This document shows, piece by piece, positions 39,964-62,873 of a DNA stretch of 64,000 nucleotides. The notes below the pieces were generated by a model. It did not search any database. It was given only the letters and a program-made list of their open reading frames with translations, and was not told the origin of the DNA. Position numbers and translations under genes: made by a program. The stretch is from Periplaneta americana (Eukaryota; Arthropoda; Insecta; Blattodea; Blattidae): the NCBI RefSeq assembly GCF_040183065.1, contig NC_091120.1, positions 1,914,501 through 1,978,500 on the forward strand. Direction: 5' to 3'. The stretch's first letter is position 1, and each line of letters begins with the position of its first letter.

Positions 39964-40632
39964 ATGGAGATATATCCGTTCGAAGCAGATGAAAGGAGCA
40001 ACGAAACTTCTCTGGATCGCTTCAACATCAACTACCTCCTGTTCTACGACAATGACGGCGACAACAGCAGCTTCGCCGGCGGGAACAACACCAACAGCTC
40101 GTACGACCTCAACAACACGATCATCATCCTGCGAGGCGACTCGCTCTACCCCAGCGGCTACTCCATGCCCCACATCATCATCGCCTCCATAGTGGTAACT
40201 CTGCTGATGATCGTGGTCGTGGTGGGTAACATGTTGGTAATCATCGCCATAGCAACGGAGAAGGCCCTCAAGAACATCCAGAACTGGTTCATCGCGTCGC
40301 TGGCCGTCGCGGACTTCTTTCTGGGGCTCGTGATCATGCCCTTCTCCCTAGCGAATGAGATCATGGGTTACTGGATATTTGGCAACTGGTGGTGCGACAT
40401 CCACAGCGCCATGGACGTGCTGCTGTGCACCGCGTCCATCATGAATCTGTGCCTCATCTCGCTGGACCGCTACTGGTCCATCACGCAGGCCGTGGACTAC
40501 CTGAAGAAGCGGACGCCCGTGAGAGCGGCGGTCATGATCACGCTGGTCTGGATCCTCAGCGGACTGATCTGCATCCCGCCCCTGCTGGGCTGGAAGGTGG
40601 ACAGGCCGGCCGAGGAGTTCCCCAAATGCCAG
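39964..40632 (+). CDS. Octα2R: alpha2-adrenergic-like octopamine receptor, first coding exon (TM1-TM4)
   Basis: A class A GPCR of the plasma membrane; the insect alpha2-like group responds to octopamine and usually couples to Gi. The exon encodes 223 residues and ends in phase 0 at cag|gtaggc. The ATG has A at -3 and G at +4, with in-frame stops 60 bases upstream. The extracellular N-tail has sequons at N13, N34, N41, N44 and N50. TM1 is about 70-95 (GN at 88-89), TM2 about 105-130 (LAVAD, D117), and TM3 has disulphide C144, amine-binding D151 and DRY at 168-170; TM4 has W196. MPFSLANEIMGYWIFG and DRYWSITQAVDY match the alpha2-adrenergic pattern. TM5-TM7 must lie on exons beyond the window. 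Codons are GC-rich, unlike the surroundings. A tyramine or 5-HT receptor is less likely. The exon end is tandemly duplicated (separate entry). Confidence 0.85.
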
Positions 40633-41204
40633 GTAGGCACACACTTCTTGGAACTACACAGATTGTTGGAGCACACGGCTCCCCGTGCACATCAAATATA
40701 AACGTCATGTCGAGGAGTTCCCCAAATGCCAGATAGGCGCACACTTCTTGGCACTACGCAGATTGTTGGAGCACACGGCTCCCCGTGCACATCAAATATA
40801 AACGTCATCTCGAGCAGTTCCCCAAATGCCAGGTAGGCGCACACTTCTTGGCACTAAGCAGATTGCTGGAGCACACGGCTCCCCGTGCACATCAAATATA
40901 AACGTCATCTCGAGCAGTTCCCCAAATGCCAGGTAGGCGCACACTTCTTGGCACTAAGCAGATTGCTGGAGCACACGGCTCCCCGTGCACATCAAATATA
41001 AACGTCATGTCGAGAAGTTCCCCAAATGCCAGGTAGGCGCACACTTCTTGGCACTAAGCAGATTGCTGGAGCACACGGCTCCCCGTGCACATCAAATATA
41101 AACGTCATGTCGAGAAGTTCCCCAAATGCCAGCTAGGCACACACCTCTTGGCACTAAGCAGATTGTTGGAGCACACGGCTCCCCGTGCACATCAAATGTA
41201 AACC
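40611..41204 (+). repeat. six 100-bp units duplicating the exon end and splice donor
   Basis: Units begin at 40611, 40711, 40811, 40911, 41011 and 41111, exactly 100 bp apart; the last is slightly short and diverged. Each holds 22 bases equal or close to the coding end cgaggagttccccaaatgcc+ag, a donor position, and 78 intron bases. Donor bases are GT in units 1, 3, 4 and 5 (40633, 40833, 40933, 41033), AT in unit 2 and CT in unit 6. Use of any later donor would retain an in-frame TAA at 40699-40701, ending the protein 22 residues after the normal junction, within a four-TM product. Confidence 0.95.
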
Positions 41205-41619
41205 ATCAGTTTTTGAGCTTCTTTGTCACGTGCGCTGGATTACTAGTGACATAGTTCGTAATAGACGCTCAGTTGTGGCACACGTACTGTCAAGTTGTAA
41301 TGCGCGATATATCTCGCTTGTATTCTTAGCACCTGGTGGACATAAGCGTTTAGTTAACTCTTTTAATTACGGCAATCTTTCAGTTGACACACTAGTCCCC
41401 TACTCATCTGTCGTAAAAGATCTTGGTTTCTTCTTCGTTAAAATCTAAATTGGATTTTTCAAGTGAAAGAAGCAATAAAAAAAAATGTTCCTCCATTCAC
41501 TGTTTGAGTAGCTAAAGAAACTTCTTGCCCCAGCAATTGAAACTTACCCTAGGACAAACCCTAGCACTTCGATAATTCTGACATTCTGTTGATACGTCAG
41601 ACACGTGTGCAACATCAGA
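41205..41619 (+). other. receptor intron sequence, no element recognised
   Basis: Follows the 100-bp array; an 87-codon frame starting in the last unit (41185-41448) has no domain. Confidence 0.4.
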
Positions 41620-42003
41620 CGATATGTTCACATATCACCGTCCTTCGCAAGTCTTTCGTAGTTCCGACTCAGAGAAAGCAGAACTTTACATTATTTGTCT
41701 TTACTCTTTCGAATTCCGGTACACCTCAACACCAAATTACCTTTCGTCTCGTTTCTCTTATCTATACTCTAACCACGACGTAAATACCAGATCACTTATC
41801 TGTGGCACGCTAAATATACCTCTACATAGAACACCTCGTTATTCCTCATCTATTACATCTTTTACAGTCTCCATCTCGCGACAATGGAATTCCTTGTCAC
41901 AAAGTGTTAGGGGCTGCAAGACAATAAACACTTTTAAAAATAGCTTAAAAGATAACCTTCTTATAGCAATTCACTTTAATTATACTGACTTTAACGGTCA
42001 CTG
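41620..42003 (+). pseudogene. LINE C-like RT C-terminal fragment
   Basis: A plus-strand frame of about 126 codons contains STPNYLSSRFSYLYSNHDVN and SRQWNSLSQSVRGCKTINTF, the same C-terminal pattern as the 2167 and 26466 copies but clearly diverged, so a related subfamily. It is truncated at both ends and has no 3' hairpin. Confidence 0.7.
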
Positions 42004-42726
42004 AATACATGATAACTTCTTTCTTTAGACAAGCTTCCTGATAGCGCTGTATTTCCACAATAATAATTGTCTCATAAAAATCTCTTTCTATTATCTAATG
42101 TAATCTTAAATATATTAACAATCTATATATTTTATACAGAGTGTTAAAAAAAAAAAGGTAAAATTGATCCGGATGAAGAAAGCTGTTGAAGCAGTTATGG
42201 CTCCTCCAGGAATTAAAATCTCAGTCAGAGAAGTCTGCAAATGATGGCAAATATATTTTTTTTAATTATTGTGAGTTTTCACAGCTATATTTCCACCTAT
42301 TTCTCTGTGTTACAAGATACAAGAGAATATGATCCAAGGTACACGAACCTGTTGTACCATGGAACACTTTACACGTCCTTTCATTTTATTTTTTTCATCC
42401 TTCATAGATCTTTGGAACAGGAAAACATCTATAGGAACTTGTAAAGGAATCTTCAATAATTATGTCAAATATTTTTTCATTTAAAAATTTCATTTTACAA
42501 AATTAAAAAAAAATCAATACAATGTGAAAAGTGATTCAAGTTGCTACTCATCCCGCGCTCCTTGCAAATATTGGATGTTTGTAAATGATCGCCGATCGAG
42601 TGGAAGACTTCAGCGAAAAGCCTGGGAGTTATGCTAGGCACAAGATGTGACTTCAACAATAACTTACGATAAACCATGTTAATGCTGAGCAATTGCATCC
42701 TGTCTTAAATAGAAGCACTGATCTAA
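42004..42726. other. spacer, no gene recognised
   Basis: Starts with AT-rich DNA; tatacagagtg and an A run near 42138 resemble a MITE end but no partner was found. Confidence 0.4.
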
Positions 42727-43680
42727 GGCCCTATTCTATTTTTACTAGGCCCTATTCTATTTTTAATATATATTAATGAGTTATTAAAAATTGACTTACA
42801 ACAATACAATGGTGTTCACTATTCTTATGCAGATGACACAGTTTTACTTTTTGGTGGAAAAACCTGGCATGATGCATATAATAATTCAAATAATGGACTT
42901 AAATTAATAAAAAAATGGTTTCACATAAATTATCTTTCTATCAATGAAAATAAAACCATCATTATTCCATTCTCATTATCTGAAAAATGTAACAAACCTC
43001 CTACATCTATATTAAGTATTAAATTACATAATTCTGATTGTTGTCTTATACAGTGTAAATGTCCGATTATTAAAGAGTCCTCTGAAGTTAAGTATTTATG
43101 CATAATTTTCGATAATCATTTAAAATGGAACCAACATATTAATTACCTTTGTAATAAATTGCGTAAAATAGTATATTATTTTGTTTTATTGAGGAATTAC
43201 TTGTCAATAAGTTTATTACGTAAAATATATTTAACTTTATTTCAATCGGTAATTATGTATGGAATTATAGGATGGGGTAACTCATTTAAATCCAATTTTA
43301 ATCCACTTTATTTATTACAGAAGAAAATAATTAAAATACGTCTTCATAAACCTATTGATTTTCCATCTCAAAATTTGTTTATAGACTTTAATGTACTTAA
43401 CATAAGACAAATTTATTATATTGTATTAATGAAATTCATACATAAAAATCGAAATAATTTTGAATTGTATTGTAATAGTTATGAAACAAAAGGTATGAAT
43501 TCTTTAAAATTGTTTGAACCAAAATGCAACACTGTTACAGTATTTAATCATAGTAGTAATTTAATCCCAAGAATATATAACAAATTTATATTTAAATATC
43601 CTAATCTTGTCAATTCTAATAGTTCTAGTATTAAATTTAAAAAGTTATGTATGGATTTTATAAAAATTGAAAAATTGTAA
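42727..43680 (+). CDS. LINE D reverse transcriptase, C-terminal 317 codons, uninterrupted frame
   Basis: Jockey/CR1-like RT that would copy its own RNA at a nicked target. The frame is open from 42727, just after a TAA, to the TAA at 43678. It starts inside the palm at GPILFL, repeats that motif once by an in-frame 21-base duplication (GPILFLLGPILFLIYINELL), and has YADD at 42826-42837 (HYSYADDTVLLF), then VKYLCIIFDNHLKWNQHI, YGIIGWGNSF in the thumb, and a tail ending FIKIEKL. No ATG precedes YADD, and the fingers, endonuclease and ORF1 are missing, so it is a 5'-truncated copy without its own start. The absence of stops over 950 bases argues for recent insertion. Codon use is extremely AT-rich. 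Confidence 0.85.
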   Translation, partial: GPILFLLGPILFLIYINELLKIDLQQYNGVHYSYADDTVLLFGGKTWHDAYNNSNNGLKLIKKWFHINYLSINENKTIIIPFSLSEKCNKPPTSILSIKLHNSDCCLIQCKCPIIKESSEVKYLCIIFDNHLKWNQHINYLCNKLRKIVYYFVLLRNYLSISLLRKIYLTLFQSVIMYGIIGWGNSFKSNFNPLYLLQKKIIKIRLHKPIDFPSQNLFIDFNVLNIRQIYYIVLMKFIHKNRNNFELYCNSYETKGMNSLKLFEPKCNTVTVFNHSSNLIPRIYNKFIFKYPNLVNSNSSSIKFKKLCMDFIKIEKL

Positions 43681-43868
43681 ATTTAAATTTATATACTATA
43701 ATTGCATAGTAGACATAAGACAAATTGTATTGTATAATTATTAATTTCAATTCAGGAATCCGTCCCTGAGCACGAGTTCTACTCTTTCAGGGGCGAGCTA
43801 AAATTTCTCTGCATATTTTATAATTTATGTTACATATTAGTAAAATAATAAATAAATAAATATATTTC
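43681..43868 (+). mobile_element. LINE D 3' UTR and tail
   Basis: It contains cctgagcacgagttct and ttcaggggcgagct (a potential hairpin: CCTGA..TCAGG) and ends in (TAAA)n at about 43862. The same layout is present at 22690-22871. Confidence 0.85.
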
Positions 43869-45893
43869 ATCTAAAAAAAAATATGTATATATACACACAC
43901 AGGCGTAAGAATGTATGAAAGTTTAATTAGGGGGATTTCCACATACCTGTTCCAATTTGAGATACGCTCCATAGAAATAGGCCTACTTGTCAAGAATTCA
44001 AGTTTTCCGGAATACGTTTTTACGAGTAATATCATGGCTACTTTACGTCACTTTATGGCTGTATGGTATAGTTTAAAAAAACAAGATCATGGATGGGTAA
44101 CTCGTGCTCACAAAGTGCTAAAAAAAAACCTTGAAAGAGAGAAAGACAGACGGAGCCAGCCGCAGCAGTTACAAGTTGTTTGTAGTTTCGCTGCAAAAGC
44201 AGTTCACTGCCACGGTGCGCTCTGGCGGCTCATGCAGGTGGTCGTGATATCTACTCCATGATTTGAATTTCGGAATGACGCATGGCACAATCATTATAGT
44301 ATTTTTAGACAGACTGTACCTAAGCACACATAACAAAATTATTTTAATTCCTAACTTTGTAAATTAGTTTGGTACTGGAAACACAAACTGCACACAACCT
44401 TTTCAAGATTCAACAAACGTAACTGCAATACTGATTTATTATTACACTATCTGTTAACATTTCTTATTATAAGTCTTATTTGAAATATACAACGCGAGAG
44501 TTTTCAAGTCTTTATACATTAAAGAGTATTCCTCTGTTCTCAGAAAGGTAATAGTTGTATTCGCAAACAATCACAAATTCAAGGAAGTATTTTTACATGT
44601 TACGGCAGATGAAATAAACTTACTTCTAAGCTCTTTCTGTACATTGAGAGCTTTTACACTTCTTTCTTGTATTAAACTCTGACTCAAGGATATACAGTAT
44701 ATTTGGAACCAAGGAGTATATTTGGAAATTCTGACTTAGGCAGCATTACGAACAGTTCGATCTTTACTAAAACCTTCACTGTGTTTATTTGTAACATAAA
44801 ATCTGCAGTGTCAGTTTTCACAAATCTTTTTTATTAATTTATTTACAACTTACGGAACATCTGCTCGCTTGGAAAAAGAGACATAAGTATTTCTCCCATT
44901 ACAATAATTCATACAGAAGAAAATCAAATCGACATAAACCAATGTGAAACAGTTTTTTTCCTTCTCCTGTAAAATTAACATTTTTGACTTGTGCCACTTT
45001 TCCCGAACACTACAGAAATTTCATGCGTAAGAAAGTGTAATACAACATAATACAAGCTTTACCTCCCTTCTTAATAAAAAAATCTCTCTCTTTCGACTCA
45101 TCAGTAAGGGAAATGATCTGGGGATTATATTCTTTTTCAATTAAAACGAGCCGCCACTTACTGTAGACGCGAGCAAACTTGTATACAGACACTACAGTAC
45201 AGAGTCCGTTCTACCTGCACTGAGGTTGTGTTCACACTTCGAGAGCACGAGTTGCCCACCCATGAACGAGATGCAATAAAAATGTAAGGAAAAAGTTTTT
45301 CATGTCACAGTATTTCTACTTGTGTTCTTTTGATTTCTATTTAAAAAAAAGTACAATGTTATGTTCTGTGTTAATGTATTCGAGTGGGGATCCCGGTGGT
45401 GTTAATTTGTTCTAGATTAAATACAGTCATTGTATAATCCCTTCAGAGCTTTGCGATGATTCCACTCCACTTTCTTACTCGATATCTCCTGCAGCGAGTG
45501 ATGTTAAAAGCCTTCGTCACAGTGTTGGTGGACTGTAGCTTCGGCCAACGTTGAAAACTGCGTGTCGCACATCTTCATTATCGACCTGCTGGCCATTGAT
45601 CCAACGTCCGCGGCTCTAATCCATGCCGAGCTCGATCAATTCCAAGAGCATGGCGCTGCTTGGGTAGGAGGCATGAAGTTGGACGTCCTTGTAGTGGATT
45701 TACGCCACTTAAATAAACGAGAAGGTTCCAGAAAAAGAGAAAATTAATGGCTCTTTCTCACCTATGTCGAAGGCACCTCCGTCTGTAAGCCTCTCAACTG
45801 TGGAAATGAGGTGTGGCGAGGAAAGGCCTGGAGCCCTGTACCAAGCATAGGGCTGTTGGCACAGGCAGCGTTCAGGCCGTGTTAAGAATAATA
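43869..45893. other. spacer, no gene recognised
   Basis: An open frame of 116 codons (43911-44261) and one of 60-61 codons at 45562-45747 have no recognisable domain. A CpG-richer patch lies at 45480-45660. Confidence 0.4.
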
Positions 45894-45901
45894 GTCATGA
45901 A

Positions 45902-46888
45902 TAGGGCTAGGATTTTGATGAAACTGCATCTTTTTTGTAGTAAGACAGAAACATAGCTGCTTTAGTATTTATATGTTATGTGATAAACTGAGTGTTTTGA
46001 GACATATTTGTAAGGACATTTTTTTGCACTTTTTGCCTGTTTCAACTCATGAGAGCATCTTTTGTGTTATTCGGACATGTTTTAGGCATTTTTTCAATTT
46101 AATTTTGGCCGCAATTCCCCATAATTAATACAAATAATGTTTATGTCCTTTGATATTTTGTATACATATTTTGTCCATTAATACCCTTTATTTTTTACTT
46201 GGTTATTTAACGACGCTGTACCAACTACGAGGTCATTTATCGTCGATGGAGTTGGCGATAGTGATATGATATTTGGCGAGATGAGGCCGAGGATTCGCCA
46301 TAGATTACCTGACATTTGCCTTACGGTTGGGGAAAACCTCGGAAAAAACTCAATCTGATAATCAGCCCAAGCGAGAATCGAACCCGCGCCCGAGCGCAAC
46401 TCCGGATCGGCAGGCAAGCGCCTTAACCGACCAAGCTACGCCGGTGGCTAATGCCCATTATTTTGTATAATATTTTAATCGTTTCTCTACACAAATATTG
46501 CCCTTTTAACGTAGTACACCCCACGTAACGGATCAGTCCAACCACCCCTTCAATATAGACTCCTCTATACTTGCTAATTCCGTATAAGAGTGGCCTTGTG
46601 ATGGGTTACATGGAAACTACATCAGGTAAAATAATTAATTAAAGTGTACCACTTAGAAAAAATTGTGTAAAATTAAATAAACTTAAATGTTGGTACTAGA
46701 ATTTAATTTAATTACTAGTCCAAATATTAAGTAGCACAAAACTCCTTTTCCTACTAAGCCAATTTGAGAATGTAAGATAAACTTTTAGGGCATTTTTAAG
46801 GGCATTTTTTTTAAGATTTTTGGGTCATAAATGCATTGTTTTTAGGACATTTTTTTATGATTTATAGGTCATCAAAATCCTAGCCCTA
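45902..46888. mobile_element. hAT MITE with nested SINE
   Basis: An 8-bp duplication, gtcatgaa (45894-45901, 46889-46896), brackets inverted ends TAGGGCTAGGATTTTGATGA (near-perfect over 20 bp). Length is 987 bp including a 258-bp SINE, so the original was about 720 bp. The interior is non-coding; the phrase gcattttt repeats on both halves. Confidence 0.85.
46191..46448 (-). mobile_element. SINE type C, copy 1 (minus strand)
   Basis: On the minus strand the head has box A TAGCTTGGTCGG and box B GGTTCGATTCTC (about 46370-46385); the end is agcgtcgttaaataacc plus an A-rich tail. It is flanked by imperfect 12-bp duplications taatacccttta (46179-46190) and taatgcccatta (46449-46460). Confidence 0.8.
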
Positions 46889-46896
46889 GTCATGAA

Positions 46897-47309
46897 CAAG
46901 AACTCACTGCTCTATCAATATGACCTCCTCTTCATTTTTATAATTACAGTTACGAATGAAATTGTTATTTTTAGGCCAGAGCAAGAAGTCAACTTTAAAA
47001 TAAATCCTTTCTATGTTTTATTTTGAGACAACAATCTTTTTATGCGGGGCGTAAGGTCCCCTAAATGTGGCCCTCTTTACAGGCAAATTGTTTTCTTACT
47101 TATTTTTTTAGATTTCCAGTATTTATAATTTACCGTTAACTTGATTATTGTGATGTTTCTATTTTCTGTCTTTCATTCAGAGCAGAAGCGTACAACAATT
47201 TTTTATTACCTCAATTTTTCACAATTGTATTTTCTTCTATTTTTTTAATATCTCTCTGGCCCAATAACTCAGTGATTAAAAATGCATATTTGATATTACA
47301 CACATTTAT
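46897..47309. other. spacer, no gene recognised
   Basis: AT-rich DNA without a recognised element. Confidence 0.4.
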
Positions 47310-47998
47310 GGAATGAAGATAAATGCCAACAAGACAAAGACCATGGTCATAGGAAGAAAAAGTAAAGAACGTAAACTTGCTAATTCTAAATGAGTCAGTA
47401 GAGCAAGTGGACAGCTTCAAATACTTGGGATGTACTATAAGCAGTAACATCAGCTGCTGCCAGGAAGTCAAAAGGAGGATAGCAATGGCAAAGGAAGCTT
47501 TTATATAGAAAAAGGAGCATCTTCTGCGGACCTCTGGAGAAAGAACTAAGGAAGAAACTAGTGAAGTGCTTTGTATGGACTGTAGCATTGTATGGGGCAG
47601 AAACATGGACATTACGACGAAGTGAAGAGAAGCGAATAGAAGCATTTGATACGTGGATATGGAGAAGAATGGAGCGTGTGAAATGGACAGAGTAAGAAAC
47701 GAAGCTGTGTTGGAAAGAGTGGATGAAGAAAGAATGATGCTAAAACTGATCAGGAAGAGGAAAAGGAATTGGTTGGGTCACTGGCTGAGAAGAAACTGCC
47801 TACTGAAGAATGAACTGGAAGGAATGGTGGACGGGAGAAGAGTTCGGGGCAGAAGAAGATATCAGATGATAGACGACATTAAGATATATGGATCATATGA
47901 GGAGTCTAAGAGAAGGCAATAAATAGGAAAGACTGGAAAATGCCGGGTTTGCAGTGAAAGACCTGCCCTTGGGCAGAACACTATGAATGAATGAATGA
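47310..47998 (+). mobile_element. LINE B copy, 3' 690 bp
   Basis: It starts in the RT palm (MKINANKTKTMVIGRKSKE, about 47314-47370), then SFKYLG-type coding, a shifted middle, and an 89-codon open frame (47653-47922) with KRKRNWLGHWLRRNCLLKN and GRRVRGRRRYQMIDDIKIYG. The 3' end is ttgggcagaacactatgaat followed by a (GAAT)n tail. YADD lies upstream of the truncation. At least two frameshifts are present. Confidence 0.85.
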
Positions 47999-49345
47999 AT
48001 CTCATTATTCATAAAGTTTCTTGAACAGAACCATCCCATTTATTAGTTACTTATTTTCACTGGACATTTAACGAGTACGTCATTAATACGATTAATATTC
48101 ACCAGGAAAAATGCATTGCCTTGGAGAATAGATGTCGTGAGTTTTGGCAAGCACGCGACAATGACCAGCACGTGGGCGAGGGGGAATTTTACTCTTCACC
48201 ACAACATGTCAACCATCCCCACCAACGGCGATTAGGTTGGAAATTGCACAGACCACGTGCCATCTCCTGGCAAGACTACTGATCCACCCATTTATACGTG
48301 AAGTCATGAAATCAGTAATCCAAATTTGGACAGAGGATGGTAAGATAGTAACAACCTAGTGAAGAGGACAGAGTCAACCATAGTCAGTAGTCGAAGTTGC
48401 AGCCTTTTAGTTTGTCGAGAGGAAAGAAAAATCTTTACAAATCAATTGACCCTCCAAGCTAGGAACTGGGGTGTGGGTTGGTTGACACGTAAAGCAAGTA
48501 TTGTATGATTTATTATATTTTTGCAAAGGGCCGTGGACTTGACTGATTCGAAAAAGTATCTATTGCATGTGAACTCACCATTAATTATGTTAAGTAATTT
48601 CAATTCATTATGTCAAGAAGTTCATTTGTTAATGTTACAGAAAAAAATTCAGCAACCAAATGTATAAAAAGATATCCATGTTGTTTATGTCATATTCAGC
48701 TTTTTACTGGAATATGAGTAGGCCTAATTCAACTTTATCTTGTTTTGAAACTGCTGAAAATTAAGGTCTCCTAAAATTTATTGTCAGTTTATTAAATTTC
48801 TGATTTTTTTCGGTACAAATTCGTTACAAAACACATCTCTTTTTAAGTTTTTATTTCCCTTGCTAATGAGTTGCATATTACTACTTGAGGCACTAATTTT
48901 TAAAATGACTTTTGTTCACCTGATAACGAAAGTGAGCTTCCTGTTGGCTTCAGAACGGTCTTTGAACTACAAAATTCTTGCATTAAAAGTGGCTATTGGA
49001 ATCAAACTGACTCTTGTTCACAGCAGAATTAGCAACAAAATATTAGTTCCAGCTTTTGAGTCTAACAATCTGATGCTTCCATCTGAATCTAAATGCACCC
49101 AACCTCTTTGGTTTCAAAATGACTCTTGCCTATCTGGTAAGAAATTTTAGACCTGAAAAGTTGTTCGTGATTTCCCACAAAGTTATGGAAATGGACAAGA
49201 GTCGTTTTGAAAATAAGCTGGTCACTTCATAACTGCTGCTCATGTCATCATCAATAACTATAAATTAAATTGTTCGTTAATACAGTATTTATGCTTTGAT
49301 GGACATCTAGCCTGTGCGTTTTCCTATAAGTTATATAAAATAAAT
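47999..49345. other. spacer, no gene recognised
   Basis: A frame of 96 codons (48860-49150) lacks any domain; no repeats recognised. Confidence 0.4.
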
Positions 49346-50265
49346 ACTAGTGGCTTGTCCAGCAAATGCTGCAAACTAAGTTCATTGGACGTTCAAATAA
49401 ACATTTTTCAGATTTATTTTCAACGAAGAATACCAGACATTCTGAAAGTTATTTGCTCCCATAATAATGAAAGATTCTCTCGAGCCAATACTGAAGAGAA
49501 CCACGCATATAAATATCTACACCACACCGCCATTAAATATATGAAAAAGACCCAATCCCACTTGATTAATAACTATAAAAATATTTGATTTTTAATAATA
49601 TTATTATCTTATGTAAGTTTTATAGCTTTCAGTAACATAATATACTATATATACTATACAGCCGCCACTCAGTAAAATATAGAAATCAAAATCTAATTTA
49701 AATTATTCTCTACATCTACTTACATAACCCCAAAAGTTTCACTTTCATATCATCAATATAGCATTAATATGTATAATTAATGAAAAATAGTCGCATCATG
49801 GCATTAACTACAATAATATTTCATTTCTAATAGTAATAATGTCATCAAACCACCTCAAGTTTTGCAGTTTTTAATATCCAATACACAGCTGTACCCAGAA
49901 AATTACACACCACAGAATCGAACCTGTACATTATTTTTAGTAAGTTAAGTTTTTAATAACCAATTTAATTTGAGCTCTAAATATGTCAGCATTCTTGCAG
50001 ATCATGGCCTTCGTGTAATATTGTTTACTGTAGTGTGTGTATTGTTTTATTCTGAAATGCAATTAGCTAGTTCTCAAAACTGACGACATATGGATTTTGG
50101 AAAATAGGAAAATTATGTTGAAAAATTGACATTTCACTGAAAACTACTATTTTTCTGAAACACTTTGAGTTCCAAGCTTCAAAATGAGGGGCCATTTATT
50201 AAAATCCGTTCAGCCGTTTTCCCCTAATTTCCATTAACAGTTCAAATTATATATATATATAGATG
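49346..50265 (+). mobile_element. unclassified 0.9-kb repeat X, copy 1
   Basis: It starts actagtggcttgtccagcaa and ends with a short TA run and tagatg. Near the 3' end it contains aaaatccgttcagccgtttt. A copy of the whole repeat lies inverted at 61003-62012. The 77-codon frame at 49355-49588 is not preserved in the other copy, so coding is doubtful. It shares an ACTAG start and GTTCAGCC motif with 32867-33855. Confidence 0.8.
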
Positions 50266-52707
50266 CTACAAGTAAATAAATAGATTTAAGATTCATCCTG
50301 TGTGTGGTATCCTACGACATAAATACACCTTCATATTGGGGAAGAGTAATATTTTTGTGAAAGACATGGAAAGCTGGACAAATTATCTTCAATCTGGAAC
50401 TGAATAAACAGGCGTCATATGGCGATCAATTCAGCATTTGCAGTAAGTTGTGAGAATGTCACCTGCCGACTGAACATCTTCCTTTGAATCTGAACACTGA
50501 AACGGTGTGTTTATGTTGACAGGGCTGTATTGTCATATGGCTGACGATTTAAAATTAATACTGCATTATAATTTAAAACTAGCAATATGCGTTTTAATAA
50601 GTTCCTAATGCTTGATGTTAATTTTTAATTAGCACTGTACCTGGTTTAATTCCCGAAATGAGTAGATCACATTTTGTATTCCATTGAAGCGAAAGCAAAT
50701 TAGCATCACGCGCAACATTTTAATTAAACATGTAGGCCTGCATATCACCAGGCGCATCTGGGGAAGATATGCATTGTTGCGAAATGGGTTTGATAGGAAT
50801 TCTCACGTCTGTTATGTTAGGAGATCCCTCTGCACTTAGACAAGTTGATCCCTTACGTATAAAACTCACAGGAAGCAGGAATGAAGTGGATAGATTTCGA
50901 GTCCGGGGTGGCTAAAGTTTTGCTAACGATATTACAGGTCATCTGGGCGTCCTTCAGTTGGCATGTTGACAGATCTTCGTATCCTTATGCATGTCCTTAA
51001 CGAGTCTTCCGTGGACTAGCCCTAGCAGACTACGTACGTCACCATTAGACGTGTTCTTCCATCCTGGCTATTCCTCGCATACTAAAGTGTCTCTCATCTC
51101 CATACGGGCTATTACATATGAAATCGACCGAAATACAGAGAAAATTGACCTTACAATTTTTAAATACAACGAAACTTTTTCTGTCCGTTGACAACTGTGA
51201 TACAATGCTTTGTGCAAAGTTCGAGGCATCAGAACTTCATAGTGTTTAAATTAAAAATATTTACATTTATCGTATGTTCATAAAATTAGCAACTTTAAAC
51301 TGTTGTGGCTCCGAAACCCTTCCACCCAATGATCAAAATCATGGTTTATTTTGATGCTGAAAAGTTAAAGTTTATATGACATGTAAACAGTTTCTTACTT
51401 TTTATGGAAATGGAGAAATTTAGATCTTTCTTCATTAAGACGCCTTTGTCCACGAAAAAAATATTTTTAAAATATATGGTTAGATTCTGCATTGAAAGTA
51501 CAAATAAACACGTATTTTTTACTGGTGCACCGTTGATAAAAAAATATTGAAAATATCAAATAAAGAAAATAAATAGTACGCGCGTGAAGTAACCAGCTGA
51601 CTGTAGGTAATCGAGACAAGCAAGGCCAGGAGACAAACACGTGATGTTTCGTCTAGTAGCGCATACCTGGGCTAGCTTTATCACAAGTTTTCATAAACAC
51701 GGGATTAAAATGACGCCCAACGCTCGCTTATCTTCAGCTCTCGGCCAGTGCTTTCTGTACTGGGCCGTTCAAGTCCAGGCGTGTGAAAATAATTTATTTA
51801 ATACCCCCGAAACTTATTGCCGTGACACTAAGCAAACAATGCCGAATCCCTCTTAATAATGCAAGTTTTTTTCTCAATTTTTTTTTCACATTTTTAAAAA
51901 TAGGCAAAAAGCCTAAAAGTAAGTAAAATCAGATTATCTGTCTCTTTGTATATAATACAAATAAGTATTACTTCTTAACATAACCTACCAAATGTCAGCT
52001 TCAAAATGAGCTCCCGTTCAATGTTCTGCAGTAAATGGTTCCAGAATTCTGAGCGCTGAAAGAGGCTTGTTTTTATAAATAAGCTAAATTTGTCGCTCAA
52101 TAGTACGAAAACCGTTTGACTTTCTACAGTATATTTTTGAAAATGCACTGAGTTCAGCACCTTGTATAAATAGGGAAAAAATGAGAATATTAAAAAATGC
52201 GAGGTTTTTTACTGATCGATTTCATGTGGAATAGCCCGTACGTCTTCAGTCTGTCAACTAACCTCAGGGGCAGGGTAAAGAATTTAGGTAGGAGCAACAT
52301 CGTTTTCAATACCGTCCACGTCCGACACACACATTCCATTAAGATAGGGTTGAATATTTTGTGTGGTAGAAAGGAAAATGTTATTTGACTCCTTTGGTCG
52401 AAAACATGTGAGACACTATTACTGGGAAGGGGATGTACATTAAGTATAAATTATTCTCATCATTGACAGTATCAGCGGTTTCCCACTACATCTAGTCTTT
52501 TTTTTTTTCACAATCATTAGAGGGGGATGAAATTTTTAATTTTATAATGCGGTATATTTATGTCTTATTGGCGACATTGTCTGTTTTCTTCGCCATCTAT
52601 TCATAGAAGTAATAACTAAAGAAGCTACACTTACATGAACAAATTATGGATCACTATCGATTAGTAGGGTGTAAAATTCGACCGATGTCAGGTATACAGT
52701 ATCATCA
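50266..52707. other. spacer, no gene recognised
   Basis: 2.4 kb without a recognised gene or transposon; frames up to 71 codons show no domain. Confidence 0.4.
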
Positions 52708-52714
52708 GACACAC

Positions 52715-53677
52715 TTACTTACTTACTTACTGGATTTTAAGGAACCCGGAGGTTCATTGCCGCCCTCACATAAGCCCGCCATTGGTCCCTATCCTGAGCA
52801 AGATTAATCCATTCTCTATCATCATATCCCACCTCCCTCAAATCCATTTTAATATTATTTTCCCATTTACGTCTCGGCCTCCCCAAAGGTCTTTTTCCCT
52901 CCGGCCTCCCAACTAACACTCTATATGTATTTCTGGATTCGCCCATACGTGCTACATTCCCTACCCATCTCAAACGTCTCGATTTAATGTTCCTAATTAT
53001 GTCAGGTGAAGAATACAATGCATGCAGTTCTGTGTTGTGTAACTTTCTCCATTCTCCTGTAACTTCATCCCTCTTAGCCCGAAATATTTTCCTAAACACC
53101 TTATTCTCAAACACCCTTAACCTATGTTCCTCTCTCAAAGTGAGAGTTCAAGTTTCACAACCATAAAGAACAACCGGTAATATAACTGTTTTATAAATTC
53201 TAACTTTCAGATTTTTTGACAGCAGACTGGATGATAAAAGCTTCTCAACCGAATAATAACACACATTTCCCATATTTATTCTCTGTTTAATTTCCTCCCG
53301 AGTATAATTTATATTTGTTACTGTTGCTCCAAGATATTTGAACTTCTCCACCTCTTCAAAAGATAAACTTCCAATTTTTATATTTCCATTTCGTACAATG
53401 TTCTGGTCACGAGACATAATCATATACTTTGTCTTTTCGGGATTTACTTCCAAACCTATCTCTTTACTTGCTTCCAGTAAAATTCCCGTGTTTTCCCTAA
53501 TCGTTTGTGAATTTTCTCCTAACATATTCACGTCATCCGCATAGACAAGCAGTTGATGTAACCCGTTCAATTCCAAACCCTCTCTGTTATCCTGGACTTT
53601 CCTAATGGCATACTCTAGAGCGAAGTTAAAAAGTAAAGGTGATAGTGCATCTCCTTGCTTTAGCCGGCAGTGAATTG
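52715..53677 (-). mobile_element. LINE A copy, nearly open RT C-terminal half
   Basis: Minus strand, flanked by gacacac (52708-52714 and 53678-53684). One frame runs from the [16 protein letters not shown] palm motif (about 53660) through [11 protein letters not shown] and [12 protein letters not shown] to LYGCET, where one stop replaces the Trp codon of the family (TGA near 53147), then continues open to AMNLRVP at 52737. Apart from that stop no lesion was seen in about 940 bases. It is 5'-truncated just before the palm; the tail is (TAAG)n. Confidence 0.9.
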
Positions 53678-53689
53678 GACACACACAAC

Positions 53690-55030
53690 TGAAAATCTAT
53701 TAGTCCCCCTTTACGGGAGGGCACGGAACTGGAAGTCGCTTATATGCAAAATAAATACTTCCCAATATTTTGAAAACTAAAAATTGCGACGGCTTTAAGG
53801 TGAAATTTGATGTGTGGACCAGCGAACCATGTGAAGTCAAACACCAGAATTTATACCGATAGGGATCGCACTTGTGAGCGAGTTCGATGTCAAAATAAAT
53901 TAGAGGCGTGCAATCACAGGTTAAATGTTCATTAGAGCGTCGTTGGGATTGAAATATATTAAAATGTAATAAACCTGCAGGCATAATTACCCCACATAAA
54001 GGGCAGTTTGTGGATAAAAAACACTTTGTCAACATGAAATATTTACGTACATTTTAGAGGCAAATATTGGTTTGTTTGAAAATATCTCAAACCAGTATTG
54101 CTCAAGGTGACTAATTAATAGTGCAATAACAATTTAAATTAAACCGCAAATTAAAACAGCGTTTTCTCAACATTTAAAGAAAAGTGCTTGCGGCCACCAT
54201 TTGCTGCGACCATGGCATGTATGGCGGTCTGCTTGCACAGAGTTAGACTGAAGGGAATATTGTTCAGCTTATAAAGGATGAGTTTGTAAAGTGCTAGGTG
54301 GCCCTAGATACGGCGTTTTTGAACAGGAGATAAAAGTAAATCTTTTTTTAAATACAGCATCGTTTCATAGATAGAACATTTATTTATTTATCTATATCTA
54401 GTGGCTGGTACGATGATATGAGATCATTACACACAAAACTTCAATCAAATATGGTAAATAAATAACGAATCCAGAAATGATGCTTGGATTAAAACTGAGT
54501 GCTGCATTGGAGTTAAATCGCTCGCTTGATCTCGGTCGAGTGTCGCACCCTCGAGTGACATACGATCGGTCGTGATACGCTCGTAATAAATAGAAGCACA
54601 GTACAAGGTTATCTCACCGACATGTCTTATCTTGTATGGAAGGCGACAGATAAGATACACATATGTTTTGCTCACACGGTAAAAATAAGGCTTTATTTTC
54701 TGCGTTTATGACAAACGTTTAATGGAACGTACCAAAACAGGAACATGAAGTTATAAATAAAATAGTATGAAAAACTTCGATATAAATTTTTATTCCTAAT
54801 TAATAATTATTCAATATTTGATTTACCACATATATAATATTATAGGTCTATACATAGTGTTCCGCCTATATACTGCGAAAATGTAGAAACGTTTTACAAA
54901 ATATTATTGATATAGCAGTAGATTAATAACAATATTAGTACAGAGATAACGTCACAGAAAATATAATAAAACGAATAATCATGCTGCACAACTGTTACAG
55001 ACGCAAAGATTGATACACTAATTATTAGAG
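53690..55030. other. spacer, no gene recognised
   Basis: Frames of 111 (53700-54035) and 76 codons on the minus strand have no domain. Confidence 0.4.
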
Positions 55031-55169
<139 letters not shown>

Positions 55170-55766
55170 GAAAACTTGATACAGTTCTGCATTATCGTGA
55201 TTGTGTTCTCCGTTTATATTAATTAAATTTACATCCAATAACATCTTTCAGATGTGGCAAAAACAAAATCACTCCTGTGGGGGGGGGGGGAAACATTTAC
55301 CTACAACATTTATATTACATTTTATAGCAAGTTTTGTAGTTGTATGGAGAGGTTAGTTAAACATTGCAAAGTTTTGAAATGATAAACATCTATGATGTTA
55401 CTACACATTTCATCACTGTAACAAGAACGAATGTCTAACGCTCGGCTTATACCGTTCGAGGATTTATCGCTTGTGACAATTTTACCCATCATGCATGTGC
55501 GCTACCTATCGGATTATGCTATGAACTACTTGGCGCTCGAGCGAAAACGTCCGATGCAGACGTCTGGATTAATATCCCACCTTGATTGAAGATGCCTGAG
55601 CTAAACAACACTTTTCCGTCGGCAGGCTTAACCAGGAGGAGATGGATCTATCTTAGATAGAATATTTAGAAGTGTAATTTGAAAGACATTGATATTATGA
55701 TGTAATTCTTATTATATAGGAGTGAGAAAATACCCATTCTTACCAGCAGTATCATACTGTGGAGCC
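55170..55766. other. spacer, no gene recognised
   Basis: Contains a G homopolymer of about 12 bases (55279-55290). No element recognised. Confidence 0.4.
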
Positions 55767-55778
55767 ATACCTTTGTTT

Positions 55779-56006
55779 TTTTCCTTGGCTATTCAACTAC
55801 GCTCTGTCAACTACTGGGTTATTTAGCGCCGATGGATTTGGTGATAGTGAGATGGTATTTGGTGAGCTGGACTAAGGATTCTTCATAGATATCCTCTCAT
55901 TCGCCTTACGGCTTGGGAGAACCTCGGAAAAATTAAACCAGATAATCAACCCGAGCGGGAATCGAACCCAAACCCGAGCGCAACTCCGGATTAGCAGGAA
56001 AATGCG
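55779..56006 (-). mobile_element. SINE type C, copy 2 (minus strand)
   Basis: Similar to 46191-46448 over most of its length but missing part of the tRNA-like head after box B. It is flanked by atacctttgttt (55767-55778) and atacctttcttt (56007-56018), one mismatch in 12. Confidence 0.8.
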
Positions 56007-56329
56007 ATACCTTTCTTTACAAGATCTTTGCGAAATGGTCTTCATACGTAGCGACACGGAAATTGTTCATGCAATTGAGTCCTTTCGTATGTTTCTATGG
56101 CGTCTCGGATATTTTGCAGTATAAATTAATTAAATAATAATAAGAGAATTAAATCTACCGTTCAGAAGAGCTACTTACATTCTTAAGGTTAGTGACCTAA
56201 CTTGTACATTCGATCATCAAAGGGAGGCATTTGCTTACAAACCATAACCTTTCCAGATCATGAAGTATGGACAGGCAAAGAAAAGATGCTGTAGACCTTT
56301 ATGATAATTTACTTGGTGTGTTAGAATAT

Positions 56330-57360
56330 TTGGACTGTAATTATTTCAGTTACTATTCCAAATAATGGATTTGTTTATTTACGTTCTTCATACGGAACTA
56401 CATGTTGGGATCCCTATAGAATACATCAGGTAAATTCGTTAGAAAGAATCCAGCATAAGGCAGCGAAATTTGTTAAAGGTAAAAGAGAAGATGGAAACGA
56501 TACGATAAAATAACTTATATGGGAAACTTTGGAAAACGGACGTAGTAAAACTAGAATAACATCATTGTATAGAGCACATCTAGGTCAGAAAGCATGGGTA
56601 GACATAACGGCTCGATTAGAAAAGCCAACGTACTATGGTAGGAACGATCATGATTTTAAAATCAAATGTAGGAAACAGAAAACGGATGTAGGTAAATTCT
56701 CATTTTAAAATAGAACTATAAATGATTGGAATGACCTACCTGCAGCGGTCTTTGAGGGCTGTCCTTCCTTAAGGAGATTCAAGAATAACTTAAAAAGTTG
56801 TGTATAAAGTGCAAATTAAAATTAAGGTGACATGTATTTATTTAGCCTGACGAGTTACTCCCTCGGTTTGAATTGTAAATTATTTAAAAAATAGCGTGTA
56901 AGAGGGCCTTAGACTAGAAATGTTTGGCTTAAATGTAGTTCTGTTTATAAGTATGCATAAAGGTGTAATTATTTGTCTTTTTGAACTGTTGTATCAGTGA
57001 AGCGAGATGAGTTAGTGAAGTTATGGTTTTACAGTGCAGTGAATAGTTCCGATCAGTGATAATTGATAGCGTTAATGAAATGTGTCCTAAAGTGCCAGTG
57101 AAATGCGTCATAGTGCCACTACAGTGAGTGAGATGAGAGTAAAGTGAAAGACTATTGAAACTTATGTAGGGCCTATATATATGTAGGCTGTATTGTGAAA
57201 TTAGGTTATTTTATGTTTTATTACTAATTGTAATTATTGTGTTAAATTGTATTGTGTATTCTTATTGTATTGTGTATTGTAATTTTATTGTGTATTGTTT
57301 ATATTGCGTATACCACTGCCACCGGATGCTTGCCCACTTGCAGTGTAAATAAATACATAC
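56330..57360 (+). mobile_element. LINE F copy 1
   Basis: The coding part (56340-56810) reads SSYGTTCWDPYRIHQVN, LERIQHKAAKFVKGKRED, then FKIKCRKQKTDVGKFSF and NRTINDWNDLPAAVFEG with two in-frame stops. This is the C-terminal tail of a Jockey/CR1-like RT. The long AT-rich 3' UTR ends ccgg-rich (ccaccggatgcttgcccact) with a taaataaataca tail at 57360. Confidence 0.75.
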
Positions 57361-57845
57361 AATTCCAAATAACGTTATCTGGCATTTTGTAAAACCTCTT
57401 GAATCGCTCAGTATAGTGATGCTAATGAACACTGAGTTTCGCTGAATATGTGGTTGGCAATCCATAGGATCCATGTTTGAGATAATTAAGAGAAGGAAAG
57501 TAGGTTATTCCTTCGCTCTGACCAAATGGTGCAGATTCGATCCACAAGTCCTGCAGATACATGGATATGGATATCATTTCCCTTCACACGTTCAGAGTGT
57601 GTCATTACTTGTGGATAAATGACTATCGTTTTCTCGTCGGACATGACAGGCCATCTGGCATACCTCGTTGGAAGCAATTACATATTCAACGCAGTGTGAA
57701 CAGTTCTGCCGTGACAAATCACTGTGACTGTGTCATTTTTGGAATGCGATGTAATTTTCCGTAGCTATACAAGCTTTTTTCCGAACTAGTTGCGGTTGTA
57801 ACTAATATAAAGGGCCAACATATCGAAATTACATATTGCGTGTAT
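57361..57845. other. spacer between convergent LINE F copies
   Basis: No gene recognised; short overlapping frames only. Confidence 0.4.
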
Positions 57846-57849
57846 ATGT

Positions 57850-57979
57850 ATGTATGCATTTATTCACACTGCAATGGGTATATACCCGGTGGCAGTGATA
57901 ACTAATTACACTCAATAATGACAATAATAAACACAATTAATAAAAAATACAATTAATAATAATACTAATAATTAATACG

Positions 57980-58023
<44 letters not shown>

Positions 58024-58690
58024 GGGAACATCCTAAATTAAATGAAGTACGATCACTTAAAATAACATTTAAAGTAAATCTAATTTGTATCTCAAACCTA
58101 AGTTCGAACTAAAACCCACAAGTATGATATGTTCATATCTGCACAAGTACCTTTCAACATTACACTCATTTCGCTGTCAACTCACTCACTGCACTGGAAC
58201 TACGACACATTTCACTGATTCTATCCTGATTTCACTAACACTTCAAAAACATTTCACTGTTCAAATACTTTGCACTGCCACTATAAACTATAAAGCTTCA
58301 CTGACAGGAACACGTTTCACTTACACAACACACTTCACTGACACAACATAATTCTTCACTGATACAACACTTCAATAACAAAATATCATTTACACCCTTT
58401 AAATACTGTGTATAATTACCGTCTATTAGTAAAGTCCTTAATCCTATTTTTAAATACGTTTTTGGTTGTTGGTAAAGTCTTTAGTAAGTCTGCAGGTAAA
58501 GCATTCCAGTCCCTGATAGTACGATTGAGAAAAGAAAACTTTCCAGTGTCCGAGTTATATGTACCGAGTGTTTGAGGAGGAATAGTAAACATTTTAGGAT
58601 GGACTGCTCTGAGTAAAAATTTCGTGCAAATATGTGTCCAATTTTGAATGGGTGTGGGGATAGATTTGTTTGAATGTAGCATAACGCGTG
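57850..58690 (-). mobile_element. LINE F copy 2 (minus strand)
   Basis: The tail region (57855-57900, with ggtatatacccggtggcagt) mirrors the 3' end of copy 1. The last 88 codons (58682 to 58416) read TGKFSFLNRTIRDWNALPAD and FKNRIKDF. An AAT run lies at about 57990-58020 and a CACTT/TTCACTG-rich stretch at 58180-58360. 5'-truncated. Confidence 0.75.
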
Positions 58691-58949
58691 TTAAAAATAA
58701 TGGCGATACGGAAAGACAATTGACTTAACAATTACATTGCTATCTTATTACTTGCATTGCAACAGTGGTTCAAAAATTCCACACCGGCTTCATTGCACTT
58801 TTTCGTTCTTTTGACAACGGTAAGTCTTGTGAGAGGCAGCACAATTCATAATGCAAGAGTATTATTCCTTCGGCTATTCAACTGTTCGAAGACAGCTTAG
58901 AACCTCATAAGTGACAACAATAAGGCATCACTTTTTCTGTAGTTAATAG

Positions 58950-59470
58950 TACGTAGGATAGCAATGGCAAAGAAAGCTTAAAATATAAAAAGGAGCATCT
59001 TCTGCGGACCTCCGAAGAAAGAGACTAGTAAAGTGCTTTGTGTGGAGTGTAGCATTGTATGGGACAGAAACATGGATATTACGACGAAGTGAAGAAAAGC
59101 GAATAGAAGCATTTGGAATGTGGATATGGAGAAGAATGGAGCGTGTGAAATGAACAGACAGAATAAGAAATGAAGCTGTGTTGGAAAGAGTGGGTGAAGA
59201 AAGAATGATGCTGAAACTGATCAGAAAGAGAAAAAGGAATTGGTTGGGTCACTGGCTGAGGTCAAACTGCCTACTGAAGGATGCACTGGAAGGAATGGTG
59301 AACGGGAGAAGAGTTCGGGGTAGAAGAAGATATCAAATATGGTAGACGATATTAAGATGTAATATGGATCATATTCGGAGACTAAGAGGAAGGCAGAAAA
59401 TAGGAAAGATTGGAGAATGCTAGGTTCGCAGTGAAAGACTTGCCCTTGGGCAGAATACTTATATATGCAT
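58950..59470 (+). mobile_element. LINE B copy, 5'-truncated
   Basis: It matches 47480-47990 at DNA level: aggatagcaatggcaaagaa, gaatgtggatatggagaaga, and coding for KRNWLGHWLRSNCLLKDALE, ending ttgggcagaatactta and a degenerate atgcatgtatg tail. Frameshifts near 58985 and 59340. Confidence 0.85.
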
Positions 59471-59742
59471 GTATGTAGGTATGTACGTATATAGCCTTAC
59501 TCAAATTCATAAGAGTTCTCATTGTGTCGATAAGTCATTAGATGAAAGTAGGCCTACCACTTCAAAATAAAAGGTTATAAGTACATAAAATATTTGTGTA
59601 ATTTTGCTGTGTCACTAATTGTAATTTCTACAGCTGCTGTCAAATGTTTACCAATGAATTTCATATTACAGGAGGCCAAGACCATACCGATGAGCGAATT
59701 ATGTATTGTTAGGAAATTAAATATTTTAATAGTAATATTATA

Positions 59743-59786
<44 letters not shown>

Positions 59787-60286
59787 CATTATTATTATTC
59801 GAGAAATAGTCTTACACAATAGTCTTAGCAAGTTCCTATCTCTCTGAATGTTTTAATCGCGTTATGCGCTCGCAAATTATCGACTAGATGAAAACTCTTT
59901 TGATTATTGCCTATGATAATCCGAAGGCTGTCTTGTTTCTGTGAACAGCATTGTTGTCTGACAAAATTCATCAACTGGTGACTGACATGTTCGCCCTTTA
60001 TTCACCACGCCCGATCCAAGATTGGCTTCGAGTGACATCTGTATTAAACTCGTTGAATGAGTAATCTAGATTAATTTGGCGCTACAAGCGGAAACCTTTG
60101 ATACTATCTAAATCCCGACCGCATTATGTAGAAGACGAAAACCGTTTTCTATTATTAAGCAGTCTCTTTGAATCACAAATGAAATACAAAGGTTACGCTT
60201 AACACGCAACTCCATTATGTTCATTGTACTTTGTCACATTGTTTTAATATAGCGTGTATTGTCATTATAAATAATATTATTTACGA
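59471..60286. other. spacer with ATT microsatellite
   Basis: ATT run at about 59740-59800; otherwise nothing recognised. Confidence 0.5.
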
Positions 60287-60612
60287 CATAGGTCCAGTTC
60301 CACCAACATGTTAAAACAGTTATATTTATTTAACAAAGAATTTAACCAAATACTGTTTCATGAATAGGTTGTTAAGTCCAACAATTTGTTTAACCGTTTG
60401 CTATGATAACATCAGAATTTCCCCTGTTAAAACCTCAATTATGGCTGGTGTAAATTACACTTTAGGAACAGTACGCTATTTATAGCCCACTTTTTAAATG
60501 TATGTCGTCTGGAAATAGGTGTAAGGATTAATAATTTCTAAAATCTATGTCAGAACGAATTTTTACTGAGACTGACTCCCCAGAACAGAAATATGCCTCT
60601 CTCTCTCTGTAG

Positions 60613-60780
60613 GCATTAATTACACTAAAATTTTACGCCACTGATTCTTTTGAGTCACTAATAGAGGACAATTTTGACATCTCCAAAGCAAACGTGAATA
60701 AAACCGTTCAAAAAGTTTATAATACTGCAGCCAGAATGAGACAAAGATATGTAGCGTTTTCATCAGTAAATGAAGAACGA
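60613..60780 (+). pseudogene. PIF/Harbinger (HARBI1-like) transposase fragment
   Basis: A 56-codon frame without a start codon reads LKFYATDSFESLIED, then FDISKANVNKTVQKVY and MRQRYVAF. The sequence L-x-FYAT-x-SF then (F/H)xIS-x-x-x-V-x-x-x-V is the N-terminal region of HARBI1-type transposases. Immediately before it is cctctctctctctgtag|gc, which looks like a splice acceptor and also supplies an in-frame TAG. The catalytic DDE region was not found downstream. gttccaccaacatgttaaa at about 60298 may be the terminus of the parent element. Too short to be functional. Confidence 0.6.
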
Positions 60781-61000
60781 CAGCAAAATATTTCGTTGCT
60801 TGAAGTTCTTCTGGTAACCTCCACCTGGCAATTCAATTGTTAGCAATTCGCACCCACGAGTTTTTATTTTCATACCGCCTGTTTTCTTCCATTCCAATAT
60901 ATATTTATATTTGGTTACAAATTCCAATATGAAAAGCTTTTCTGTGTTAGTGCGTAGAATTGAATCCTCCTGTGTTTTTCGTTGTTCACTCCCACAGAAA

Positions 61001-61002
<2 letters not shown>

Positions 61003-61066
<64 letters not shown>

Positions 61067-62012
61067 GAAGTGGTAATGAAAATTACGGGAAAACGGCTGA
61101 ACGGATTTTAATAAATGACCCCTCATTTTGAAGCTTGGAACTCAAAGTTTTTCAGAAAAATAGTAGTTTTCAGTGAAATGTCAATTTTTCAACATAATTT
61201 TCCTATTTTCCAAAGTCCATCTGTCGTCAGTTTTGAAAACTAGCTAATTGCATTCACGGCCGACTTGATGCTTGATGCGAAGCGAGCATCAAGTCGGCCG
61301 TGTTGCATTTCAGAATAAAACAAAACACACACTACAGTAAACAATATTACACGAAGGCCATGATCTGCAAGAATGCTGACATATTTAGAGCTCAAATTAA
61401 ATTGGTTATTAAAAACTTAAATTACGAAAAGTAATTTACAGGTTCGATTCTGCGTTGTGTAATTTTCTGGGTACAGCTGTGTATTGGATGTTGAAAACTA
61501 CAAAAGTAGAGGTGGTTTGATGACATTATTACCATTAGAAATGAAATATTATTGTAGTTAATGCCATGATGTGACTATTTTCCATTAATTATACGTATTA
61601 ATGCTATATTGATGATATGAAAGTGAAAAGTTTTGGGGTTATATAAGTAGATGTAGAGAATAACTTAAATTAGATTTCGATTTCTATATTTTACTGAGTG
61701 GCAGCTATATAGTATATGTTACTGAAAGCTATAAAACTTACGTAAGATAATAATATTATTAAAAATCAAATATTTTTATAGTTATTAATCAAGTGGGGTT
61801 GGGTCTTTTTCGTATATTTAATGGCGGTATGGTGTAGATATTTATATGCGTGGTTCTCTTCAGTATTGGCTCGAGAGAGAGTATCTCTCATTATTACGGA
61901 AGCAAATAACTTACAGAGTGTCTGGTATTCTTCATTGAAAATAAATCTGAAAAATGTTTATTTGAACGTCTAATGAACTTAGTTTCCAGCATTTGCTACA
62001 CAAGCCACTAGT
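61003..62012 (-). mobile_element. unclassified 0.9-kb repeat X, copy 2 (inverted)
   Basis: Minus-strand counterpart of 49346-50265. Its TA tail is expanded to about 60 bases (61003-61062). The similarity runs from the GTTCAGCC motif (61080-61100, inverted) to actagtggcttgtgtagcaa ending at 62012. It carries one extra 55-bp block at 61248-61309 that copy 1 lacks. Confidence 0.85.
61255..61302. repeat. 48-nt perfect-arm hairpin insertion
   Basis: Arms cacggccgacttgatgct and agcatcaagtcggccgtg are perfect 18-bp inverted copies around 12 bases. It is flanked by ttgcatt (61248-61254 and 61303-61309). Copy 1 of the host repeat has the uninterrupted site at 50054-50070. Confidence 0.9.
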
Positions 62013-62770
62013 AGTAATATATTTATATTTGGGTATTTTTTTCTCCATAATCATTTCCTTTTCTCTAATGTTTCACTGTCAGAGTAACAAAATCTACATC
62101 GACATAAGGCATAGTCCTACTATAATCCCTGTGCTTGGTGTTGCGGCACATTCGAATTATAACAATGCTATCTTTATTATAGAGAGACCTACCGCCTAGT
62201 ACCGGCCTTGTAATAAAATGAAACCGACACATTATGGAATTTAACTTGTTGTGAAACATACTGAAAATGTTTTTTTGATTATTTTGACAGTTGTACATGT
62301 CAGATATTGTTAAATATTATGGATTGTTGATTTTAATTTCATTTTAAGAGCAGTATTCACCCGTTGGTTGGTATGAGTTCTGACTTCATTGTAAAACGTC
62401 CATTTAATGTTTTGTGCATTTGACAGTTCATATTTTTAATATCAACTTCACATTTGATCCGGTTTCTCTGATATCCCTCAGCGATAGCAAAACTCAAATA
62501 ATTTTTTAGCAAAATGTCGCGTCGTGATTCTCGCGAGATTAGTGAAAATTTCACGACGTCTCTTCTCAGCCGCAGCGTGACTATGTTGTCGGGTACATTC
62601 TTTTCCGAACTAGATTCATTTTCCACAAATTAAGCTTTCAAGAATAACTCCCTGTAAAGTTAATTTGAATAATTTCGAGGGAAAAATTGTGTAGTCACAC
62701 AGAGTTTGTGTGCACTCAAATGTTGGTTGCTTGACTGTTGTCAGCCCACTTTGAGGTCTGTGGATATAGA
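62013..62770. other. spacer, no gene recognised
   Basis: Minus-strand frames of 77 and 89 codons (62065-62298, 62357-62626) have no recognisable domain. Confidence 0.4.
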
Positions 62771-62798
62771 GGGAAAAATTGGATCGGTGTCGGGTAGA

Positions 62799-62873
62799 GT
62801 TCCCGGGTAGCTCAGTGGGAGAGCGTTGGTACGTTTAACCAAAGGTCCCGGGTTCGATACCCGGCCCCGGAAC
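62799..62873 (+). repeat. tRNA-like SINE head (type E), copy 2
   Basis: Cloverleaf: acceptor TCCCGGG/CCCCGGA with one mismatch, D arm GCTC/GAGC, anticodon stem TTGGT/ACCAA with loop ACGTTTA, T arm CCGGG/CCCGG with TTCGATA. Nominal anticodon GTT, but position 33 is C instead of the near-invariant U, which argues against function. It is followed by aatttttccctcgaaat as in copy 1. An 11-bp inverted repeat (gggaaaaattg 62771-62781, caatttttccc 62873-62883) encloses it. Confidence 0.65.

Follow-up and report, generated by a model that had tools for sequence, protein, structure and literature searches.

The receptor exon and its surroundings

The 64,000-base stretch of Periplaneta americana DNA analysed here (the window) contains, on its plus strand, an open reading frame beginning with a putative start codon (ATG) at 39964, whose first 223 codons, as far as 40632, translate into a fragment of a rhodopsin-family receptor. 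At the end of this fragment lies a tandem array in which the exon end and its splice donor recur, and the coordinates of these features are collected in Table 1. The fragment matches the Pfam family 7tm_1 (E = 2.9e-40) over model positions 1-130 of 260, and its top matches in the PDB are the alpha-2C (E = 8e-47) and alpha-2A (E = 2.1e-46) adrenergic receptors. These matches place it among the rhodopsin-family amine receptors closest to the alpha2-adrenergic receptors, and support its assignment as an alpha2-adrenergic-like amine receptor. The original prediction had called it an octopamine receptor; the amine receptor part of this name stands, and octopamine is a plausible ligand, a label that draws on similarity and background knowledge rather than on a tree.

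Table 1. Features of the receptor exon, the tandem array and the sequence that follows. The slash marks the exon-intron boundary of a donor or donor copy.
Feature	Coordinates	Strand	Basis
Coding exon of an alpha2-adrenergic-like amine receptor: putative start codon, N-terminus, predicted TM1-TM4, start of extracellular loop 2	39964..40632	+	Translation, Pfam, PDB match
Unit 1: the final 22 coding bases of the exon and the 78 intron bases after them, with the presumed native donor CAG/GTAGGC at their junction (exon end at 40632)	40611..40710	+	Unit comparison, donor scan
TAA stop codon that the reading frame meets when the 40632 donor goes unused	40699..40701	+	Translation
Unit 2: donor broken, CAG/ATAGGC after 40732	40711..40810	+	Unit comparison, donor scan
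Unit 3: donor intact, last exon-like base 40832	40811..40910	+	Unit comparison, donor scan
Unit 4: donor intact, last exon-like base 40932; same as unit 3 except column 99	40911..41010	+	Unit comparison
Unit 5: donor intact, last exon-like base 41032	41011..41110	+	Unit comparison, donor scan
Unit 6, matching over 93 columns, with a broken donor, CAG/CTAGGC after 41132; continues into single-copy sequence	41111..41203	+	Unit comparison
Downstream sequence, presumed intron	41204..64000	+	No TM5-TM7 exon recognised

The exon ends in phase 0, after CAG. We infer that 40632 is its true end from the reading frame, from the alpha-2C alignment, which reaches residue 222 of the 223 in the query (which we take to be the conserved Cys of extracellular loop 2), and from the GT found there, which is the highest-scoring donor in the exon, the best of the others scoring 8.5, at 40221. 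When the 64-kb window was searched by tblastn with TM5 and TM6-7 probes no convincing match to an exon encoding TM5-TM7 was found, in a search that a divergent or short exon could escape; the best match (E = 0.004) lies inside a TA repeat on the minus strand, and the remaining ones are short or weak, some of them with stops. Because no TM5-TM7 exon was recognised inside the window, the intron probably continues for at least 22.8 kb past the array and beyond the window, the alternative being that the next exon was missed.

The window also holds reverse transcriptase fragments, probably from non-LTR elements, at 42727-43680 (plus strand, Pfam RVT_1, E = 5.5e-07) and 53148-53696 (minus strand, E = 1.1e-15), together with further pieces that look similar by eye. 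Just past the array, an open frame at 41582-42001 (plus strand) resembles by eye the tail of a LINE reverse transcriptase and gave no match to Pfam. Two tRNA genes are predicted on the plus strand, at 1065-1138 (Ser GCT) and 62801-62873 (Asn GTT), and may be real tRNAs or SINE heads.

An array of exon ends and splice donors

Tandem Repeats Finder reports the array at 40611-41203 with a period of 100, 5.9 copies, 96% matches and 0% indels, and a repeat search places the unit starts of Table 1 at a spacing of exactly 100 bases, five times in succession. Each unit consists of the last 22 coding bases, or a copy of them, followed by 78 intron bases that open with the donor (71 intron bases in unit 6). 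Unit-by-unit comparison finds 15 of the 100 columns variable, nine of them within the first 93; the other six are columns 94-99 and reflect the degeneration of unit 6, column 99 being variable among units 1-5 as well. The sixth unit matches over the first 93 columns only, so that the prediction of six units of exactly 100 bp from 40611 to 41204 holds for their number and spacing, but not for the length of the last unit nor for the end of the array, which is at 41203. No second location of the unit was found by blastn within the window, and a chance origin of the repeat is excluded. Because its left side runs into the coding exon and its right side into single-copy sequence, the left side of unit 1 and the right side of unit 6 represent the original flanks. 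Units 2-5 have a GC content of 52.5%, near the 56.8% of the exon and well above the 34.5% of what follows the array; a stretch of the array kept in the mRNA, or an exon extended into it, would therefore look natural and exon-like.

Long-period arrays (period 97 to 168) number four in the window and occupy 2741 of its 64000 bases (4.3%), a base rate taken from one window. The others include a larger array at 20150-21262 (period 97, 11.5 copies, 95% matches), which shows no similarity to the receptor array by blastn, and two more at 5615-6285 (period 168) and 10639-11002 (period 166).

The donor sequences can be read directly, and they bear out the original prediction that four keep GT and two are mutated, the +1 G being replaced by A in unit 2 and by C in unit 6. 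The four intact donors, after 40632, 40832, 40932 and 41032, had been described as near-identical and are in fact identical over the nine positions from -3 to +6. Scored with a donor matrix that is not trained on the cockroach species analysed, they are among only 7 of the 3524 plus-strand GT sites in the window that score equal or higher, with six such sites on the minus strand; from 41032 to 42700 the strongest other GT reaches 6.0, compared with 10.49 for the array donors. The rarity of such high-scoring sites argues that the ladder of donors is not everyday pseudo-donor scatter. The computed U1 duplex energies of the four are equal, at -10.7 kcal/mol, and unit 1 alone among them carries A, the base complementary to U1, at +7.

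Should splicing pass over the donor at 40632, translation would add 22 residues to the 223 and then reach the TAA at 40699-40701, giving a product of 245 amino acids; this confirms that all later donors retain an in-frame stop. The product would lack everything after extracellular loop 2, in keeping with a 7tm_1 match that covers the first 130 of the 260 model positions. The prediction of a four-TM truncated receptor agrees with this truncation; that TM4 would be its last helix is suggested by the alignments rather than by a helix predictor. From the stop to the junction at 40832 there are 131 bases, and to the later junctions more. By the usual rules, which are well established and from which those of insects differ in part, transcripts from the later donors would be expected to undergo nonsense-mediated decay.

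Variation among the units and signals beyond the donors

A parsimony tree on the first 93 columns requires 12 changes and is the single best of the 105 trees; it groups units 3, 4 and 5 closely and sets units 1, 2 and 6 apart, so that units 3-5 look like a recent expansion. Of the 12 inferred changes, the 22 exon columns among the 93 account for two, against 2.8 expected, and no constraint on the copied exon bases is seen among these few events. Two of the changes are independent losses of the +1 G. The chance of two or more hits in that one column is 0.007, but the column was picked post hoc; the figure rises to 0.026 for either GT base and to 0.09 for the four donor positions. The chance that some column is hit twice is 0.52, and three columns (5, 23 and 29) actually were. 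Three non-native lineages can be counted (unit 2, units 3-5 taken together, and unit 6), and two of them have a dead donor. There is thus a weak, post hoc hint that the extra donors may be selected against, and that the array may not be strictly neutral.

Folding of the six units is ordinary relative to shuffled sequence (z from -1.14 to +0.46; three further stretches folded alongside span -0.87 to +0.97), while in all six units, at each of three settings, the donor 9-mers have a predicted local accessibility under the median of the region. A hairpin that hides the donors was rejected as a selected feature, since the units fold no better than shuffled sequence, although the low accessibility itself stands. 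Protection by U1 against early polyadenylation was also set aside: AATAAA occurs past the array at 41474 and 41923, but the motif is common (119 copies on the plus strand of the window, or 1.86 per kb) and nothing about these copies is specific.

As acceptors, the CAG/GT composites of units 1, 3, 4 and 5 rank within the best 2.7-4.9% of 3456 AG sites, and another AG, at 40761 in unit 2, within the best 3.8%, both by a crude matrix. The pyrimidine tract of the composites is short, TTCCCC with AAATG after it, and there is no match to the branch-point consensus YTNAY on the plus strand between 40611 and 41210.

Precedents, rival readings and meaning

The repeat units of the minisatellite in human IFI6 (6-16) are short (12 bases) and in frame, and they add few residues. 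Two downstream units of that minisatellite serve as donors, yielding three mRNA species (PMC4526556), and it is a direct precedent for a donor-bearing array. In both cases a minisatellite sits at the donor of an exon and its repeat units offer alternative donors, whose use is known in IFI6; the receptor array likewise overlaps a presumed exon end with donor-bearing units, four intact and two broken. It differs in that its unit is 100 bases, which is not a multiple of three, and in that a stop lies between the first donor and all later ones. The receptor array is new in the length of its unit, which is out of frame, in the stop that parts its first donor from the rest, in having two dead donors and in the presumed long intron. 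A literature search gave no mention of the array in titles or abstract openings among the matches listed, which is no proof of absence.

Two other systems share the copying of splice signals. In the potato RdRp gene, a tandem duplication across an intron-exon boundary led to the gain of a spliced intron, verified by reads (PMC4974935); it resembles the receptor array in crossing a splice boundary and copying real splicing signals, but the acceptor side was copied once in potato, whereas the receptor array has the donor side in six copies. The same paper describes new introns arising from tandem duplication of AGGT-containing segments, with the Rogers model, ATP2A1 and 24-bp repeats in fission yeast as examples (PMC4974935). 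AG/GT recurs in every intact unit here, and the donor of one unit might pair with the AG of a later one to delimit an intron 100 bases long or some multiple of that; however, the copied GT and AG are accompanied by a poor pyrimidine tract and no YTNAY, and the copied segment is mostly intron already.

The explanation that we prefer, and that we place just on the probable side, is that the array is mainly a neutral minisatellite seeded at the exon end, with the first donor dominant and the later donors leaking into unproductive RNA. A tandem duplication would have happened to span the exon-intron boundary, and slippage or unequal exchange would have expanded it into a six-unit minisatellite with a donor copy in each unit. 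The donor at 40632, the sole one able to give a whole receptor, would do most of the work, and the other three intact donors would compete with it for U1 snRNP, so that a share of the transcripts would use the junctions after 40832, 40932 or 41032 instead. Such transcripts would carry the stop and be degraded, or would encode a receptor cut after TM4, and more donor copies could lower receptor output. Long-period arrays are common enough in the window that selection is not needed to account for one on a splice site, and the three mRNA species of IFI6 support leakage through downstream repeat donors. The ordinary folding, the lack of visible constraint on the copied exon bases and the exon-like GC content of the array also speak for this explanation. 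Against it, competing identical donors are reportedly subject to a preference for the intron-proximal site (Eperon and colleagues); such a preference would shift use towards 41032 and leave the gene mostly unproductive. The two losses of the +1 G count against strict neutrality. The honeybee orthologue also counts against leakage, though no such array is stated there: it is described as having three exons and an intron 1 position that Drosophila shares, with alternative splicing not in evidence (PMC7762591).

The array could instead be wholly inert, the first donor being used exclusively, since the true exon and its enhancers adjoin it and it is transcribed first, and the others being ignored. 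Pseudo-donors commonly are ignored, the +7 A distinguishes unit 1 despite the equal duplex energies, and the copied exon bases give no sign of constraint; but four donors that are identical over nine positions and make up four of the seven top sites among 3524, in an array of exon-like GC content, fit poorly with inertness, and we regard this reading as unlikely while taking it seriously. The original prediction suggested that a supposedly length-variable minisatellite could tune receptor level. The corresponding reading, a selected control on receptor level in which the proportion of stop-ending transcripts depends on copy number or on a splicing factor, strikes us as improbable. The geometry of identical donors with a stop after the first would permit it, and alternative splicing, in whatever part of the transcript, is cited for the orthologous receptors of Chilo and Drosophila (PMC7762591), but the folding is ordinary, the copied exon bases show no constraint and no other selected feature was found in the array, two of the five extra donors are broken, and the honeybee orthologue is described with one product. 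In a related version, to which we give similarly little credence, the length of the array is an inherited dial, more intact units giving a larger unproductive share, with the losses of the +1 G as selected compensations.

Two further readings concern the array itself. An assembler could have expanded one or two real units, and given that units 3 and 4 agree at each of the first 93 columns and that unit 5 departs from them there at just one, the number of units could be wrong; yet units 1, 2, 6 and the group 3-5 are mutually different, by 12 steps on the tree, a result not to be had from one unit by simple mis-assembly, and an artefact is quite doubtful. Alternatively each CAG/GT could act as an acceptor and a regenerated donor, the array being removed stepwise by recursive splicing with no trace in the mRNA. 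Long introns of Drosophila use such ratchet points (PMC8605326), and the receptor array resembles them in having AG/GT composites within a presumed long intron. The donor half of the composites is strong, and their acceptor ranks given above speak for this reading. The array differs in its doubtful acceptor half, with the short pyrimidine stretch and the lack of YTNAY noted above, in its location at an exon edge and in its origin by duplication, and the composite follows automatically from the copying of a CAG/GT exon end, so that recursive splicing appears very improbable.

The locus bears on donor choice among identical sites, which is mostly known from built constructs. Here a native gene offers four donors, identical over nine positions and placed at 0, 200, 300 and 400 bases, before a seemingly long intron, and the stop separates productive from unproductive choice of donor. 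Alleles of differing copy number, if there are any, would provide a ready natural test of donor competition, and of repeats eroding or tuning genes. Use of the first donor alone would still show clearly that position or exon context can outweigh sequence identity. Should the array length prove to be a dial, this natural series of identical donors, spaced 100 bases apart in one gene, would give an in vivo measure of spliceosome choice between equal sites.
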